DNA from: Shewanella violacea DSS12
GTDB lineage: Bacteria; Pseudomonadota; Gammaproteobacteria; Enterobacterales; Shewanellaceae
DNA: 64,000 nt
NCBI RefSeq assembly: GCF_000091325.1
Contig: NC_014012.1
Span: 2,338,824 to 2,402,823, forward strand
Direction of reading: 5' to 3'
Of the stretch, positions 35,425-62,985 are shown piece by piece. A program made the translations under genes and the position numbers. The notes under the pieces are model-generated. The model was given only the letters and a program-made list of their open reading frames with translations, was not told where the DNA came from and did no database searches. The stretch's first letter is position 1. Every line of letters starts with the position of its first letter.

Positions 35425-37708
35425 TCTTACACGCGCCGCCTTCACAGCCTTCGTCTTCTTCCTCTACGCTGATGATGCTATCGAGTTGATCCGACGCACC
35501 ATCACGAGTGTTGTGATAATAGAGGGTCTTAAGACCGAGTTTGTAGGCATTCAACAGGTCTTTTAATAACACCTGCATGGGGACCTTATTACCTTCGAAT
35601 CGACTCGGGTCATAGTTAGTGTTTGCCGAGATAGCTTGATCGACAAACTTCTGCATCAAGCCAACAAGCTGTATATACCCATCATTGTTGGGCATTTGCC
35701 AGAGTAGCTCATAGCTATGCTGGTACTTCTCGAAGTCCGGCACCACTTGCTTTAGCTGTCCATCTTTGCTCGACTTAACACTGATGAGTCCACGTGGTGG
35801 CTCGATACCATTAGTCGCGTTTGAGATCTGCGATGATGTTTCTGATGGCATAAGCGCAGATAGGGTTGAGTTACGCAGTCCGTGTTTAACGATATCCTGA
35901 CGCAGTGTTTCCCAATCCATATGCAGTGGCTCATCACATATTTTATCCAGAGAACGCTTGTAAGTATCGATGGGCAATACACCCTTCGAATAGGTTGTTT
36001 CATGGAATAAGGGGCAAGGGCCTTTCTCTTTAGCCAAATTCATTGAAGCCTTGAGTAAGTAGTACTGTATGGCTTCGAATGTTTTATGGGTGATGTTATT
36101 AGCCGAACCATCTGAGTAGCGTACACCTTCTTTCGCCAAGTAATTAGCGAAGTTAATCACGCCTATGCCTAAGGTACGACGGTTCATCGAAGACTGACGC
36201 GCGGCTATGATTGGATAGTCTTGATAATCGAGTAAGTTATCTAATGCTCTTACTGCCAGATCTGCTAAGGGTTCAAGTTCCGATAGGTCTTTGATCTTAC
36301 CTAAGTTTAAGGCTGACAGGGTACAAAGTGCAATTTCGCCATCTGGGTCATTGATGTTATTGAGTGGCTTAGTCGGTAGTGCAATTTCAAGACATAGGTT
36401 TGACTGTCTGATCGGTGCAACCTTGCTGTCAAAAGGACTGTGCGTATTACAATGGTCCACATTTTGAATATAGATACGGCCAGTAGAGGCGCGTTCCTGC
36501 ATCATCAATGAGAATAGCTCTGTCGCTTTAATCTGTGTCTTACGCACCGAGTTATCGGCTTCATACTGAAGGTAGAGACGTTCAAATTCGTCTTGGTCTT
36601 CAAAAAAGGCATCATAAAGCCCAGGCACATCCGATGGGCTAAACAAGCTGATCATGCCGCCTTTAATCAAGCGCTGATACATGAGTTTGTTTAACTGTAC
36701 ACCGTAATCAAGGTGACGGACGCGGTTGTCTTCAACACCTCGGTTGTTCTTCAATACCAGCAGAGATTCGACTTCAAGATGCCAGAGAGGGTAGAACAAG
36801 GTTGCAGCGCCACCGCGAACTCCGCCTTGTGAGCAAGACTTAACAGCGGTCTGGAAATACTTAAAGAAAGGCAGACAACCAGTATGGAATGCCTCACCGC
36901 CGCGAATAGGGCTACCTAGAGCGCGAATTCGGCCTGCATTGACACCTATACCTGCGCGCTGACTAACGTATTTAACGATAGAAGAGGCCGTCGCATTGAT
37001 GGAATCTAGGCTATCGTCACATTCAATCAGTACACATGAACTGAACTGGCGAGTGGGAGTACGCACTCCCGCCATGATAGGTGTTGGCAGTGAGATCTTA
37101 AAAGTGGAGACCGCATCGTAGAAACGCTTAATGTAACTAAGGCGAGTCTCTTGGGGATATTTTGCGAACAAACAGGCGGCAACCAAGATATAAAGGAACT
37201 GTGCACTCTCGTATATCTCGTGGGTGACACGGTTTTGAACCAGGTACTTACCTTCCAGCTGTTTGACTGCCGCATAGGAGAAATCCATATCGCGCCAGTG
37301 ATCCACATAGCCGTCTAAGATATCGAGTTCTTCGCGGCTAAAATCTTCAAGAATATGTTGGTCATATTTACCTGACTCGACCAGTTTTACAACATGATCA
37401 TAGAGTTTAGGTGGTTCAAACTGACCGAATGCCTTCTTTCTCAAATGAAAGACAGCTAAGCGAGCCGAAAGGAATTGGTAATCAGGTGCTTCAGGTGAAA
37501 TTAGATCGGCAGCGGCCTTAATAATTGTCTCATGAATAGCTTCAGTAGGAATACCATCGAAAAATTGCAGGTGTGATCTGAGCTCTACTTCTGATACCGA
37601 GACGTTTTTAAGATCTTTGGCTGCCCATGTGATCACGCGGTGGATTTTTTCTAGGTCGATGGTCTCGCGCTCGCCACTACGTTTGGTGACTTTCATATTG
37701 CAATTCAT
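35420..37708 (-). CDS. nrdA: Ribonucleoside-diphosphate reductase class Ia, alpha subunit
   Basis: Catalytic subunit that reduces ribonucleoside diphosphates. 762 residues. N-terminal ATP-cone (KVTKRSGERETIDLEKIHRV), active-site cysteine in FSSCVLIECDDSLDSINAT, NLCLEIALPT (Asn, Cys, Glu), LCTLSALNLG (second redox Cys) and the C-terminal shuttle pair CEGGACKI. Overall class Ia, allosterically regulated by ATP/dATP through the cone. It heads the minus-strand nrdA-nrdB-yfaE operon. NrdR- and DnaA-type sites lie upstream. Confidence 0.97.
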   Translation of the reverse strand: MNCNMKVTKRSGERETIDLEKIHRVITWAAKDLKNVSVSEVELRSHLQFFDGIPTEAIHETIIKAAADLISPEAPDYQFLSARLAVFHLRKKAFGQFEPPKLYDHVVKLVESGKYDQHILEDFSREELDILDGYVDHWRDMDFSYAAVKQLEGKYLVQNRVTHEIYESAQFLYILVAACLFAKYPQETRLSYIKRFYDAVSTFKISLPTPIMAGVRTPTRQFSSCVLIECDDSLDSINATASSIVKYVSQRAGIGVNAGRIRALGSPIRGGEAFHTGCLPFFKYFQTAVKSCSQGGVRGGAATLFYPLWHLEVESLLVLKNNRGVEDNRVRHLDYGVQLNKLMYQRLIKGGMISLFSPSDVPGLYDAFFEDQDEFERLYLQYEADNSVRKTQIKATELFSLMMQERASTGRIYIQNVDHCNTHSPFDSKVAPIRQSNLCLEIALPTKPLNNINDPDGEIALCTLSALNLGKIKDLSELEPLADLAVRALDNLLDYQDYPIIAARQSSMNRRTLGIGVINFANYLAKEGVRYSDGSANNITHKTFEAIQYYLLKASMNLAKEKGPCPLFHETTYSKGVLPIDTYKRSLDKICDEPLHMDWETLRQDIVKHGLRNSTLSALMPSETSSQISNATNGIEPPRGLISVKSSKDGQLKQVVPDFEKYQHSYELLWQMPNNDGYIQLVGLMQKFVDQAISANTNYDPSRFEGNKVPMQVLLKDLLNAYKLGLKTLYYHNTRDGASDQLDSIISVEEEDEGCEGGACKI

Positions 37709-37855
37709 TACTGATAGGCCTTGATAATAATTTTTGAGAATGAGGGGTTAAACTCTTTCTGCGATTCCCTGTATAACAACCAATTTAAAACACCCTAATT
37801 GGTACCTTCCTTGACGATTCACAAGTTTTGCCTTGTGTCTCTGTTTGTTACTTAC

Positions 37856-37900
37856 ACACCATATATAGTGTTTTTAAATTTCTTAGGTACAAGATAGTGT
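37856..37900. promoter_or_regulatory. NrdR box pair upstream of nrdA
   Basis: ACACCATATATAGTGT (37856-37871) matches the NrdR consensus acaCwAtATaTwGtgt at all but one position. AGGTACAAGATAGTGT (37885-37900) matches at 10 of 16 and lies 29 bases further, near the usual three helical turns. NrdR represses ribonucleotide-reductase operons. 148-192 bases upstream of the nrdA start. Confidence 0.75.
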
Positions 37901-37951
37901 CGTTTACGTGATTTTGCAAGTCCCAATTATTCCAATAAGCTGTGGTCATCT

Positions 37952-37960
37952 TGTGGATAA
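37952..37960. promoter_or_regulatory. DnaA box upstream of nrdA
   Basis: TGTGGATAA is the exact reverse complement of the strong DnaA box TTATCCACA. In E. coli, DnaA binds upstream of nrdA and couples its expression to replication. The rest of the 37709-38167 gap shows no gene. Confidence 0.65.
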
Positions 37961-38167
37961 CTTGAGGGTAAGCTTGATGGTAATATTGAGGGTTAGTATA
38001 GGCTAACCTTTGAGGTCGGAATTTATTAGCTTTATCCCTGAAAAATGAAATATTGAACGGACTCTCCAAGATCAAAAGATCCCAAAATAAATTGGTGATC
38101 TTTTAGATCTCGTCAGCCTTTGGTGAACATTATACGAGCAATATATACTTGCCGGTCACTGTCAGTG

Positions 38168-38851
38168 TTAACTGAGAAACTTAAGTACATCACCAGGTGT
38201 GTTGAACTGATAATCACTTGGCCAATCTTCAGGCGTGTCAGCGTCACTTATATAGCCCCATAACGCGATACCACCAAGCATTCCCGATGCGTGTGCCGCC
38301 ACAAGATCTCGTTTGGCATCGCCAAGGTAGAGGATCTCTTGGCACTTGCATTTAATCTGCTGTGAGGCGAGCAGCATGGGCGCCGTATGAGGTTTAGCGT
38401 AAAGTGTGCTGTCACCACTGATCACAGTTTTCATGGATTGGGTCAAATCTAGCGCTGCAATCAAGGGCCGGGTGTATCTAGCTGGCTTGTTGGTCACTAT
38501 GCCAAAAGGGATGCCTTGAGCATTGAGATGACTGAGTAGCTCAGGCATACCGGCAAATAAATGGCAAAACTTACCGTTTACCTCTGAATAAAAGTTCAGT
38601 AGTAACTGCTGCGCCTTCAGATGAACCTCTTCAGAGGCGTCAGGTAAGGCGGCGACAGCCATTGCCAAACTGCCATCTGAAGCAATATGGCGCATCGCTT
38701 CGAGGGATACTCGAGGGTAACCTAGCTCGGATAAGCTCATATTCAACGCCCCTACCAGATCTGGGGCGGTATCGGCAAGCGTCCCGTCAAGATCGAATAA
38801 CACTGCTTTTATGTTGATTTTATTAGCCGTATCGAATGCCTGTGTCATCAA
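38168..38851 (-). CDS. HAD-family phosphatase next to ubiG
   Basis: 227 residues. HAD motifs: nucleophile [11 protein letters not shown] (about 18-28), motif II VTNKPAR, Lys in YAKPHTAPM, and motif [14 protein letters not shown]. This subfamily includes phosphoglycolate phosphatase (Gph) and MupP (N-acetylmuramate 6-phosphate phosphatase); the neighbourhood after ubiG is the one in which mupP is found in Pseudomonas, but sequence alone does not decide. The start overlaps the ubiG stop by four bases (ATGA), so the two are co-translated. Confidence 0.85.
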
Positions 38852-39573
38852 TCTTCACTCTTACGTGTGGCAATCATATAGTTCACATCGACACTTTTGG
38901 TATAAGTGAAGGTGTCAGTCAATGGGTTATAGGTGATCCCTGTTGCATCTTCACAGAATAGCTCGGCATTCTCGGCGAGTGAGATGAGCTCTGAGGGTTT
39001 GATAAACTTCTTATGGTCATGAGTCCCAACCGGTAGCATTTTAAGCAGGTACTCGGCACCTAAGATAGTCTCTATATAAGCACGTATATTTCGATTGATG
39101 GTGGAGAAGAATACATAACCGCCGGGTTTAACCATATCGGCACAGGCCTGAACCACTGAGCGAGGGTTAGGTACGTGCTCGAGCATCTCCATGCAGGTGA
39201 TGACATCGTAGCTCGCAATATTAGAATCTCGGTGAGACTCGGCAGTGTCCTGTATATAATTGACCTGAACGCCAGTTTCTATGGCGTGCAGTCTAGCCAC
39301 GTCAAGAGGTTCTGTGCCCATGTCTAAGCCGTCAACTTTAGCGCCGATACGAGCCATACTCTCAGACAAAATACCACCACCACAGCCTACATCCAGAACC
39401 CGCTTACCAAACAGACCAGCACAAGTTTGATCGATATAGTTGAGTCGCAGAGGGTTTAACTTATGTAATGGTTTAAATTCGCCTTGTGGATCCCACCAGG
39501 TTGCTGCCATTTTTTCAAATTTGGCAATTTCTGCTGGATCGACGTTTATCTCAGGTTTAATTTCTTGCTCCAC
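38848..39573 (-). CDS. ubiG: Ubiquinone biosynthesis O-methyltransferase
   Basis: SAM-dependent enzyme catalysing both O-methylations in ubiquinone synthesis. 241 residues, E. coli length. SAM motif [14 protein letters not shown], then [20 protein letters not shown] and the C-terminal [19 protein letters not shown] are characteristic. The start codon is 37 bases from the tandem-repeat array, so its promoter must lie in or beyond the array. Divergent from gyrA, with the 847-base gap between. Confidence 0.95.
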
Positions 39574-39610
39574 TATATCACCTCAATAGGGATTATTAAT
39601 GCCGCCATTA

Positions 39611-40185
39611 TACCCATAGAATGACAGATTCAAAGCTGGTATCAATATGAATGCCTAGGATACCCCTATGTAAACTGACAGATTCAAAGCCGGTATTAAT
39701 ATGAAGCCTAGGATACCCATAGAATGACAGGTTCAAAGCAGGTATCAATATGAATGCCTAAGATCCCCCTATGTAAACTGACAGATTCAAAGCCGATATT
39801 AATATGAAGCCTAGGATACCCATAGAATGACAGATTCAAAGCGGGTATTAATATGAATTCCACGATCCGGCGATAGCCATAGGTAGACCGACAGATTCAA
39901 ATCCAGTATCAATATGAATGCCTAGGATCCCCCTATGTAAACTGACAGATTCAAAGCCGATATTAATATGAAGCCTAGGATATCCATAGAATGACAGATT
40001 CAAAGCTGGTATCAATATGAATGCCTAGGATACCCCTATGTAAACTGACAGATTCAAAGCGGGTATTAATATGAATTCCACGATCTCAAGATCCCCTTAA
40101 AGAGGCCGACAGATTCAAAAGGACGACAGGTTCAAAGCTGGTATCAATATGGACCCCAGGATATCTATAGAATGTCAGATTCAAA
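39611..40185. repeat. Tandem array of alternating 54- and 49-bp units between ubiG and gyrA
   Basis: The core GACAG(A/G)TTCAAA occurs 12 times (starts 39623, 39677, 39726, 39780, 39829, 39890, 39944, 39993, 40047, 40108, 40125, and 40174 as GTCAGATTCAAA). Spacings are 54, 49, 54, 49, 61, 54, 49, 54, 61, 17 and 49. Two unit types alternate: A (54 bp, ends CCTATGTAAACT) and B (49 bp, ends CCCATAGAAT), with a 61-bp variant C twice. Order A B A B C A B A C, a truncated copy, B-like, fragment. Copies 1 and 8 are identical over 54 bp. A B-type end (39611-39622) precedes copy 1. No ORF runs through it: the unit lengths are not multiples of three. Confidence 0.9.
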
Positions 40186-40362
40186 CTAGCGATAAATAAC
40201 AAACTAGCGAATATTTAACCAATTGATTGATTAGCTAACATTGTTTGATTTAGGTCAGTTTTATATAGAGATTAATACTTATTTATCTCTAAAATTGAAT
40301 AGGGTCTGGTGACAAAAAATAACTGTGTTAGAATGCCAAATCACGTTTTCAGGCTGAACCAT

Positions 40363-40386
40363 TTACCGCGCTATTTCGGCCGGTAA
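40363..40386 (+). promoter_or_regulatory. Hairpin in the gyrA leader
   Basis: TTACCG and CGGTAA pair with a 12-base loop in the 5' region of gyrA, 35 bases before its ATG. The rest of 40186-40420 is AT-rich and must hold the gyrA promoter; I could not choose a -35/-10 pair confidently. GyrA synthesis in other bacteria responds to supercoiling at its promoter. Confidence 0.35.
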
Positions 40387-40420
40387 CGGGTAAGCACAAT
40401 TTCAAGGGATCGAGCAGTTT

Positions 40421-43138
40421 ATGACTGATCTGGCTTCATCTATAACACCAATTAATATTGAAGACGAATTAAAGAATTCATATCTAGATTACGCCATGAG
40501 CGTGATCGTGGGCCGTGCATTACCCGATGTTCGTGACGGCCTTAAGCCCGTTCACCGTCGCGTACTTTTCGCGATGAGCGAACTTAAAAACGATTGGAAC
40601 AAACCTTATAAGAAATCGGCACGTGTTGTCGGTGACGTTATCGGTAAGTATCACCCCCATGGTGATACTGCGGTTTATGACACAATCGTTCGTTTAGCAC
40701 AGCCTTTCTCCATGCGTTACCCTTTAATCGATGGCCAAGGTAACTTTGGTTCGGTCGATGGTGATGCTGCAGCTGCGATGCGTTATACCGAAATCCGTAT
40801 GGATAAGTTAGCCCATCAGCTATTAGCAGATCTTGAAAAAGAGACTGTCGACTTTGTGCCTAACTATGATGGTACCGAGTTTATTCCGGCAGTTATGCCT
40901 ACTCGTATCCCGACACTCTTGATTAACGGCTCTTCAGGTATTGCCGTCGGCATGGCGACCAATATCCCGCCTCATAACATGACTGAAGTGATTAAAGGTT
41001 GTTTGGCGCTAATCGAAGAGCCTGCACTTTCTATTGAACAGTTAATGGAATACATTCCAGGTCCAGATTTCCCCACAGCCGCCATTATCAATGGCCGCAA
41101 AGGGATTATCGATGCCTATAAAACGGGCCGTGGCCGCGCAATTATGCGTTCTAAGGCTGAAGTTCAAGTAGAAGATAATGGCCGTGAGCGCATTATCGTT
41201 CACGAAATTCCTTATCAGGTTAACAAAGCTCGTCTTATCGAGAAGATAGCCGAGCTGGTTAAAGATAAGAAAATTGAAGGCATCACTGGCCTACGTGATG
41301 AGTCCGATAAAGATGGTATGCGCATCGTTATCGAAATCAAACGTGGAGAGGTGGGTGAGGTTGTACTAAACAACCTTTATGCACAGACTCAGATGCAGTG
41401 CTCATTCGGGATAAACATGGTGGCTTTGACCAATGGTCAACCTAAACTGTTTAACCTAAAAGAGATGATAGAGTGCTTTATCTTGCACCGCCGTGAAGTG
41501 GTTACTCGCCGTACCGTATTTGAATTACGCAAAGCCCGTGACCGTGCACACATTCTAGAGTCACTGGCTATCGCACTGGCTAACATAGATCCTATTATTG
41601 CCATGATCAAGGCGTCACCAACGCCTGCCGAAGCTAAAGTTAAGCTGGTTGATCAAGGTTGGGAGCTAGGTCATGTTCAAGCCATGCTTGAGAAAGCCGG
41701 TGATGATGCAGCGCGTCCTGAATGGTTAGAGCCTGAGTACGGTATTCGTGACGGTCTCTACTACCTAACTCAGCCACAAGCACAAGCTATCTTAGACTTA
41801 CGCTTACATAAGCTAACGGGTCTAGAGCATGAGAAGATATTAGCTGAGTATGAAGAGCTGATAGATATCATCGCGGCTTTACTCTACATTTTGCGAAGCC
41901 CTGAACGCTTATTAGAAGTGATCAAGGAAGAGCTGAACGAGATACTGGAAAATTTCGGTGATGAACGTCGCACCGTCATCAATGCTAACGAAGTTGATAT
42001 GAGTCTTGAAGATCTTATTAACGAAGAAGATGTGGTAGTAACCTTATCGCACTTAGGTTATGCCAAGTATCAACCACTGACTGATTACCAGGCTCAGCGC
42101 CGTGGTGGTAAGGGCAAGTCAGCGGCAAAAGTGAAAGATGAAGACTTCGTCGAGAAACTACTTGTCGCCAACACCCATGATACGATTCTGTGTTTCTCTG
42201 ACTTTGGTAAGCTCTATTGGCTGAAAGTGTATCAGTTGCCGCTCGCAAGCCGTCAGGCTCGTGGTCGTCCAATTGTGAACTTATTGCCTCTATCTGAAGG
42301 CGAGCACATCACAGCCATTCTTCCAGTGCGTGAATATGCAGATGATAAATACATCATCATGGCAACATCACACGGCACAGTGAAGAAGACAGCATTGAAG
42401 GCATACAGCAATCCTCGTGCAAACGGTATTATTGCAGTAAACCTTAAAGACGGCGATGAGCTCATTGGCGTCGATATTACCGATGGCAAGAATGACATCA
42501 TGTTGTTCTCCGATGCGGGTAAAGTGGTTCGTTTCAATGAGATGGTCAGAGATTCTGAAACTGGTTTGGTCAAACTTGATCCGGAAACCAACGAAGAGCT
42601 AGTTGCACTGCGTCCTATGGGCCGTACCGCTACTGGTGTTCGTGGTATACGTCTTGAAGATGGTCAGAAAGTGGTGTCACTGATTGTACCTAAAGAAAAT
42701 GGTGCCATCTTAACCGTCACCGAGAATGGATACGGTAAGCGTACCTCACTCGAAGAGTATCCGGCCAAGAGCCGTGCGACTAAGGGTGTTGTTTCTATCA
42801 AGGTCAGCGAACGAAATGGTGCCGTAGTTGGTGCTGTTCAAGTTGGTGAAAATGATGAAATCATGCTTATCAGTGATAGAGGTACTTTAGTACGTACTCC
42901 TGCAACCGGTGTATCCACTATCGGACGTAACACTCAAGGTGTAACGATTATTCGTATCGTCGAAGGAGAGAAGGTTGTTGGTCTTCAACGTATCGATGAG
43001 ATCCATGAGGATGAAGTCGAGCTTGATGAAGAGGGCAATCCTATCATCCTAGAGGGTGATGACGCCGAAACAGGTCAAGTCATCGAAGGCGAAGAGCCTA
43101 AAGGTGATGATGAGCCTGAGGCAGAGCCTGCCGAATAA
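40421..43138 (+). CDS. gyrA: DNA gyrase subunit A
   Basis: Breakage-reunion subunit of gyrase, introducing negative supercoils. 905 residues. N-terminal winged-helix and tower ([20 protein letters not shown]), quinolone region [19 protein letters not shown], catalytic Tyr in [10 protein letters not shown], GyrA-box RQARGRP within the C-terminal beta-pinwheel, and an acidic tail ([10 protein letters not shown]). Position 83 is Thr (codon ACT) where E. coli has Ser; Asp87 is retained. Start ATG 40421 is preceded by AAGGGA. Confidence 0.97.
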
Positions 43139-43150
43139 GCGTTAACCTCT

Positions 43151-43182
43151 AAAACGAGCGTCCAATTGGACGCTCGTTTTGT
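43151..43182 (+). terminator. Terminator after gyrA
   Basis: AAAACGAGCGTCCAA and TTGGACGCTCGTTTT form a perfect 30-base palindrome, with T-rich sequence after it. Confidence 0.85.
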
Positions 43183-43289
43183 TTTAGGGATACGTAAGTA
43201 AAAAAGATAATTCACAATAGAAAATATGCTTAGAAAACTAAGTGTCTTATGGCAGACTAAATTGTTACTAACGATGAGAGGATAGAGAC

Positions 43290-44384
43290 GTGAGCGTGAC
43301 TTATAATTTCTGTGCAGGTCCTGCGATGTTACCCCAAGCCGTGATGCAAAAGGCGCAATCTGAATTATTGGATTGGAATGGTCTAGGTACTTCGGTGATG
43401 GAGATTAGTCATCGCAGCAAAGAGTTTATTGCGCTGACTGAACAAGCGGAAATAGATTTGCGTGAACTAATGTCGATCCCTGCTAATTACCATGTATTGT
43501 TTATGCATGGTGGCGGACGAGGCCAGTTCTCTGCTGTAGTGAATAATTTTCTTGGTAAGCAAGGTAAAGCCCTCTATTTGGTCTCAGGTAGCTGGTCTCA
43601 ATCGGCAGTTGAAGAAGCTAAAAAACTGACCTGTGATGCTCAGATAGACAGTATCAACATTGCTGAAAATACTAATGGAATTAATCAAATAGTCTTGCCT
43701 GATCTCGCTAAGATAGATCAAGATTATCGTTATCTGCACTACTGTCCTAACGAAACCGTCGATGGTATCGAAATCTTTGATGAGCTTGATTCACCATGGC
43801 CAATCATCGCCGACATGTCCTCGAACATCATGTCCAGAGAGATAGATGTTAGCAAGTATGCTGTGATCTATGCCGGCGCTCAGAAGAATATTGGGCCTTC
43901 GGGTCTGAGTATCGTCATCGTCCGCGATGATATGCTTGAACTGCCAAGTCTGCCTCAGTCATCTATCATGGATTATGGTTTAGGGGTTAAACACGGCTCC
44001 ATGTACAACACGCCACCGACATTTGCTTGGTATCTGGCTGCCGAGGTCTTCGCTTGGCTTAAAGACTCTGGTGGAGTCGTGGCCATGGCCAAGAGGAACC
44101 TGAAGAAAGCGGCGCTGCTTTATGATTTTATCGATAGCAGTGATTTTTACACCAGTAAGGTGTGTCAATCAAACCGCTCAGTGATGAATGTGACCTTTTA
44201 TCTAGCCAATGAAGAATTGAATGCATCTTTTTTGAAAGGCGCCACAGATGCAAATTTAGTGGCACTGAAAGGGCACCGGAGTGTAGGCGGTATGCGAGCG
44301 AGTATTTATAATGCCATGCCAATCGAAGGGGTTGAGGCGTTAGTCGAGTTTATGCAGGATTTTGCTGGTAAAAACCAAGCTTAA
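43290..44384 (+). CDS. serC: Phosphoserine aminotransferase
   Basis: PLP enzyme for serine and pyridoxal phosphate synthesis. 364 residues. Seen: [35 protein letters not shown], the PLP-Lys in [12 protein letters not shown], and the C-terminal [19 protein letters not shown] start at 43290 after GAGAGGATAGAGAC. In many gammaproteobacteria serC precedes aroA directly; here an aminotransferase on the opposite strand comes between them. Confidence 0.95.
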
Positions 44385-62903: not shown

Positions 62904-62985
62904 AGTGCTTTAACAATTAGTGCCTTAAGAACCAGTGCCTTAAAAATTAGTGCTTTAAGAATTAGTAACTTAAGAATTAGTGTCT
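62904..62985. repeat. Tandem 15-bp repeat
   Basis: Five and a half units of 15 bp, consensus AGTGCCTTAAGAATT, starting at 62904, 62919, 62934, 62949, 62964 and 62979 (partial). They lie in the 494-base gap before the small secreted protein. Each unit is a multiple of three but no long frame uses it. The rest of the gap is AT-rich without a gene. Confidence 0.75.

Follow-up and report, generated by a model that had tools for sequence, protein, structure and literature searches.

A tandem array between ubiG and gyrA of Shewanella violacea DSS12: a locus-specific minisatellite with probably little or no selected role

Tandemly repeated intergenic DNA in bacteria is best described from the minisatellite or variable-number tandem repeat (VNTR) loci used in MLVA typing, in which units of tens of bases stand head to tail as diverged variants, with higher-order blocks, chimeric units and a copy number that differs between lineages. 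Two further classes of repeat invite comparison, namely the CRISPR arrays, in which a short motif recurs at nearly regular spacing between unrelated spacers, and the dispersed intergenic elements of the REP, BIME, ERIC and MITE kinds. The array considered here lies between the divergent ubiG and gyrA genes, in a window of 64,000 nucleotides from S. violacea DSS12 (contig NC_014012.1, positions 2,338,824 to 2,402,823), the window being the whole stretch of DNA that was analysed. In the papers matched by literature searches on S. violacea tandem repeats and on ubiG/gyrA intergenic promoters, the array figures in no title or abstract opening. We find that it is a locus-specific minisatellite and not a dispersed element, and consider it likely that it arose within one lineage and is near-neutral, with little or no selected sequence-specific role; its origin is reconstructed by comparison, and its lack of function we infer.

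The gap holds eleven exact copies of the core GACAGRTTCAAA and a twelfth, GTCAGATTCAAA, with one mismatch, which begin at 39623, 39677, 39726, 39780, 39829, 39890, 39944, 39993, 40047, 40108, 40125 and 40174. The core-to-core spacings are, in order, 54, 49, 54, 49, 61, 54, 49, 54, 61, 17 and 49. The first-pass annotation of the window had given the same twelve cores and spacings, which we reproduce; however, the alternation that it called strict is interrupted three times, twice by a step of 61 bp and once by one of 17 bp. Tandem Repeats Finder describes the array by periods of 103 and 164 (scores 561 and 609, respectively). As had been claimed, the array fills most of the gap (about 576 of the 847 bp between the start codons), but the ubiG start, earlier taken as ATG, is GTG at 39573 in the list of open reading frames. 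That list covered 37500-43500 and contains no frame of at least 60 aa inside the array, on which ground a coding role is rejected; the names ubiG and gyrA are those of the first-pass annotation. The features of the region are:

39610..40185, no strand assigned: tandem array of twelve cores at spacings of 54/49/61/17, from core search and Tandem Repeats Finder
39623..39889, no strand assigned: higher-order block 1 of 267 bp, comprising units 1-5 in the order A B A B C, from block alignment
39890..40107, no strand assigned: higher-order block 2, comprising units 6-9, which repeats block 1 minus one 49-bp unit, from block alignment and self-match
40108..40136, no strand assigned: cores 10 and 11, 17 bp apart, a short internal duplication
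40186..40220, no strand assigned: right flank of copy 12, like the sequence after the single unit in relatives
38848..39573, minus strand: ubiG, an open frame whose tblastn matches adjoin gyrA in relatives
40421..43138, plus strand: gyrA, an open frame with tblastn matches in relatives

The window contains a second tandem repeat at 62904-62982, with a 15-bp unit in 5.3 copies.

The linkers that follow the cores are of three types, A (54), B (49) and C (61). With five single-base gaps, inserted by hand, types A and B align, so that the 54/49 alternation amounts to one unit in two indel forms. The five-unit block recurs minus one 49-bp unit, as is also seen in a self-match of 201 nt at 91% (39617-39817 versus 39884-40084), and unit 9 is a chimera, B-type on its left side and C-type on its right. 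The complete identity of units 1 and 8 over 54 bp, noticed in the first-pass annotation, is confirmed; set beside the pairs predicted by the block model (1/6 and 3/8), which are 93% alike, it fits a later conversion. The block duplication, the chimeric unit and the identical pair thus argue for unequal exchange or conversion, as had been suggested.

Across the whole single-contig genome of 4,962,103 bases the exact core pattern occurs 14 times, 11 times in the array and 3 times elsewhere, and a reversed control of the pattern occurs 0 times; with only these 3 outside the array and none for the control, chance is excluded. The best match to the array in the rest of the genome has an E value of only 1.67, and plasmid and phage collections, which may omit records very near the S. 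violacea genome, gave zero matches. A dispersed or mobile repeat is therefore rejected. Repeat self-comparison revealed no inverted repeats within the array, and a candidate unit hairpin, GATTCAAA..TTTGAATC, was dropped, being perfect in one unit of a relative (G027, read by eye) and broken in the S. violacea units.

The genus was searched at the DNA level, as proposed in the first-pass annotation. Of 129 genomes including that of S. violacea, with one genome per species for comparison, 16 matched the array query at E <= 0.001, that is 15 of 128 relatives, and 8 of the 15 matches reach no further than query position 61, within the ubiG-side flank. A longer query, run earlier against 98 relatives, had matched 4. 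Only the gaps of the 15 matching relatives were read; the other 113 of the 128 gave no match. G010, G003 and G108 carry one unit of about 50 bp each, G058 carries two, G027 three and S. violacea twelve, and G116 has a single, more diverged unit. More than one unit is thus seen in 2 of the 15, and in these the cores of the second unit (G058) and of the third unit (G027) are diverged. The remaining nine have the flanks with no recognisable unit, some of them with the stretch AGATTCAAA. Among named genomes, 79 ubiG-gyrA gaps (62 from Shewanella and 17 from others, out of 80 loci, one of which lacks ubiG) contain no exact core. These counts (1, 1, 1, 2, 3 and 12) bear out the proposal of a variable-number type of repeat, with variation between species, and the related species, with 1, 2, 3 and 12 units, show in steps how a bacterial minisatellite can arise next to a promoter.

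At each end the array adjoins sequence that resembles the flanks of the single unit in relatives (CATTATACCC on the ubiG side and CGAATATTTAACC on the gyrA side), and the right flank of copy 12 ends in GCGAATATTTAACC, for which G003 and G108 have the counterpart ACGAATATTTAACC. The C linkers (CCACGATC) resemble the G027 and G058 junctions (CCCACGATAG), so the first duplication may be common to these species and, from this sequence likeness, seems older than S. violacea. A two-gene tree groups G010, G000 (the S. violacea genome), G003, G027, G058 and G108 at 98/98, with weaker inner support, and the unit counts are scattered over it (1 in G010, then 12, 1, 3, 2 and 1). Since the counts do not simply follow the tree, loss or exchange must be assumed; this scatter and the diverged extra units of G058 and G027 speak against a lineage-specific minisatellite. 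In length the S. violacea gap, at 847 bp, compares with 268-409 bp across 62 Shewanella loci. The gap of G058 (L121) carries an unrelated insertion of several hundred bases between a block resembling an FNR/CRP site and the gyrA promoter region; as this insertion is of another kind, long ubiG-gyrA gaps arose in more than one way. In the gap of another Shewanella locus (L094), positions 70-173 hold an unrelated, perfect tandem array of a 34-bp unit in 3.1 copies.

The relation of the array to the two promoters is defined by three elements:

39607..39612, minus strand: likely ubiG -10 hexamer TATAAT at the ubiG edge of the array, from conservation in the genus
39629..39634, minus strand: likely ubiG -35 hexamer TTTGAA, 16 bp from the -10 and in the core of copy 1, from conservation in the genus
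40324..40335, plus strand: likely gyrA extended -10 element TGTGTTAGAATG, outside the array, present in 59 of 62 Shewanella loci

Among the 62 Shewanella loci that gave a ubiG match, 58 (all except L058, L073, L074 and L094) have ATTATA, read as TATAAT on the strand of ubiG, no more than 75 bp upstream of that gene's start, the starts being estimated from protein alignment. At a spacing of 16 from TATAAT, TTTG is found in 30 of these 58 and another hexamer in 28; TTTG is found in 0 of 58 at spacings of 14, 15, 17-20 and 22, and in 1 of 58 at 24. All 16 genomes that match the array query, whose species may overlap the 62, have TTTGAA, TTTGTT or TTTGCT at spacing 16, and all 16 also have the gyrA element. 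Only 3 of the 6 letters of the ubiG -35 agree with the consensus, and a general promoter scan did not list this promoter, so the call rests on conservation and not on consensus. As the -10 stands at the ubiG edge of the array and is conserved across most of the genus loci, the start of ubiG transcription is expected near 39600, probably just outside the array. The earlier claim that transcription of ubiG has to begin within the array or cross it is therefore not supported. A candidate distal ubiG promoter (TTGACC or TTGACT, 17, GCTAAT) is present in 5 of 6 close relatives and weakened to CTGACC in S. violacea, and a stricter pattern for it was found in 1 of 62 genus loci against 0.3 expected from shuffles; we regard a distal promoter reading through the array as doubtful. 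The likely ubiG and gyrA promoters thus appear to be kept at the two ends of the array, and both look intact.

On this reading the array amplifies the half of the likely ubiG promoter that lies upstream, the break falling within the -10. An ancestral segment of about 50 bp, running from inside the ubiG -10 through the spacer and the -35 (TTTGAATC) to the CGAATATTTAACC stretch, was tandemly duplicated, the break probably occurring through the short homology ATA. Unequal exchange, slippage and conversion then raised the number to twelve cores in S. violacea, and the array would mostly only push the divergent ubiG and gyrA promoters apart.

Several observations point to a near-neutral minisatellite: 1) A single unit lies at the same place in G010, G003 and G108, with two in G058 and three in G027. 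2) RNA folding of the whole array is no better than that of shuffles on either strand (minus strand, z +3.29, with 20 of 20 shuffles folding at least as well; plus strand, z +0.50, with 14 of 20), and the array has no Rfam match up to an E value of 1, on which grounds an RNA leader or attenuator is rejected. 3) The core is not significantly conserved once scanning is allowed for. In a test on eight units of types A and B, which set aside units 5 and 9 (type C) as well as copies 10 and 12, 1 of 12 core columns is variable versus 21 of 42 others, and an equally conserved window of 12 columns arises in 505 of 5000 column shuffles; core conservation is therefore rejected as a sign of selection. 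4) The unrelated array in the L094 gap and 21 other noncoding arrays in a sample of the genome place this array in company. Against near-neutrality stand the core conservation before scan correction (a fraction of 0.00045 of random 12-column sets as conserved, in an alignment with poorly placed linkers), the presence of the -35 in every core, and an excess of promoter-like matches over shuffles.

The genome sample consisted of 40 stretches of 20 kb of S. violacea, with the window excluded, searched with Tandem Repeats Finder. Noncoding arrays with a score of at least 200 number 21 in these 800 kb versus 13 in 1.6 Mb of four single-contig relatives chosen by the analyst (3 in G010, 4 in G013, 4 in G116 and 2 in G003; binomial p 0.0006), and at scores of at least 400 the counts are 15 and 9 (p 0.003). 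Per Mb the S. violacea sample has about three times the arrays of the four relatives, where noncoding means that open frames of at least 100 aa cover less than 30%, a crude rule under which some arrays may hold tRNA genes. Fourteen noncoding arrays of the sample outscore that between ubiG and gyrA (609). Long noncoding tandem arrays are found at L142, L167, L151, L175 and L153, in these five with periods of 78-291 bp in 3.9-9.5 copies, and at further loci of the sample. At L174 (1616-5413, 8603-9501 and 9539-19932) the open frames are very large and contain repeats of some 297-378 bp; our guess, from their size, is that they probably encode a giant surface protein built of repeats. Piezophilic Colwellia are reported to have a lower coding density (PMC7542103), and the intergenic regions of S. 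violacea to average 196.6 bp (PMC5893861), a length to which abundant noncoding arrays could contribute. The latter source also gives longer intergenic means, 228.1 and 197.2, for two Psychromonas from 228-250 m, so that depth alone does not explain intergenic length.

The first of the alternatives, which we hold to be unlikely, is that the -35 and spacer halves recruit RNA polymerase or sigma-70 and fire poorly, so that, as decoys or a local reservoir, they would tune ubiG and possibly gyrA according to the number of copies. The core does include the likely -35 of ubiG; the arrangement is TTTGAA-16-TATAAT in copy 1 and TTTGAA-16-TATCCT in copies 3, 5, 8 and 12, a retained 16-bp spacing that could matter and that weighs against near-neutrality. 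Between 39500 and 40500 there are 10 promoter-like matches versus 4.6 (sd 2.2) in shuffles, and eight of them lie within the array, all on the plus strand, towards gyrA, repeating two types of site. However, a good -10 is confined to copy 1; at a spacing of 20 bp copies 2 and 9 have TATCCT (TTTGAA-20-TATCCT) and copies 4, 6, 7 and 10 poorer hexamers, and copy 11 has none; moreover, the agreement of the -35 with consensus in half of its letters and the silence of the promoter scan count against this alternative, and the close single-unit relatives manage without an array.

Slightly less likely still is a role as spacer or insulator, in which the longer gap would separate the ubiG promoter, the gyrA promoter and the FNR/CRP-like block and thereby uncouple supercoiling or regulation. 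The site concerned is:

40245..40258, no strand assigned: FNR/CRP-like site TTGATTTAGGTCAG, from a match to the consensus

Some 630 bp separate this block from the ubiG -10 in S. violacea, versus about 100 bp in single-unit relatives, and the site fits the consensus less well, by one letter, than it does in 5 of 6 close relatives. In E. coli, ubiG and gyrA both appear in a list of cAMP-CRP targets taken from RegulonDB (PMC3105977). Nevertheless, the site is also missing in the single-unit G108, so that its loss need not follow from the array; the pattern occurs in only 22 of 62 genus loci; and the G058 gap owes its length to another insertion, on the gyrA side of the block.

An iteron-like protein-binding, recombination or replication site, suggested by a 12-bp core repeated in direct orientation, is very improbable, the spacings of 54/49/61/17 not being multiples of one helical turn, the array occurring once in the genome and giving no query match in 113 of 128 genus relatives, and core conservation failing the scan correction; nor was any evidence found for the protein-binding, supercoiling, recombination or replication roles raised in the first-pass annotation. 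Equally remote is a wrong copy number through mis-assembly, to which repeats are prone and which a single genome invites, as the units differ among themselves, two other genomes have multi-unit versions, and the array (576 bp) is about as long as one Sanger read.

Beside the near-neutral minisatellite that we prefer, a more speculative possibility, which we rate as improbable, is that the split -10 multiplied the ubiG -35 and spacer without a start site, and that landing sites for polymerase, made variable by recombination, could tune ubiquinone synthesis against gyrase expression. Such a promoter-half minisatellite could be set in a deep-sea species with an array-rich genome.

Compared with the known systems, the array shares with CRISPR its short motif at nearly regular spacing, but the sequences between its cores repeat too and are not unrelated spacers, in agreement with the earlier opinion that it is not a CRISPR. 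Like the REP, BIME, ERIC and MITE elements it is intergenic and repeated; unlike them it is not dispersed, has no plasmid or phage match and, taken whole, folds no better than shuffles. Its closest counterparts are the bacterial minisatellites and VNTR loci, with which it has in common head-to-tail units of tens of bases (within 10-100 bp) in diverged variants, higher-order blocks, chimeric units, confinement to one locus where it derives from local single-copy sequence, and a copy number that differs between lineages, from 1 to 12. It differs from them in that the variation is here known between species, and its unusual feature is a repeated unit that carries half of the likely promoter of a neighbouring gene.
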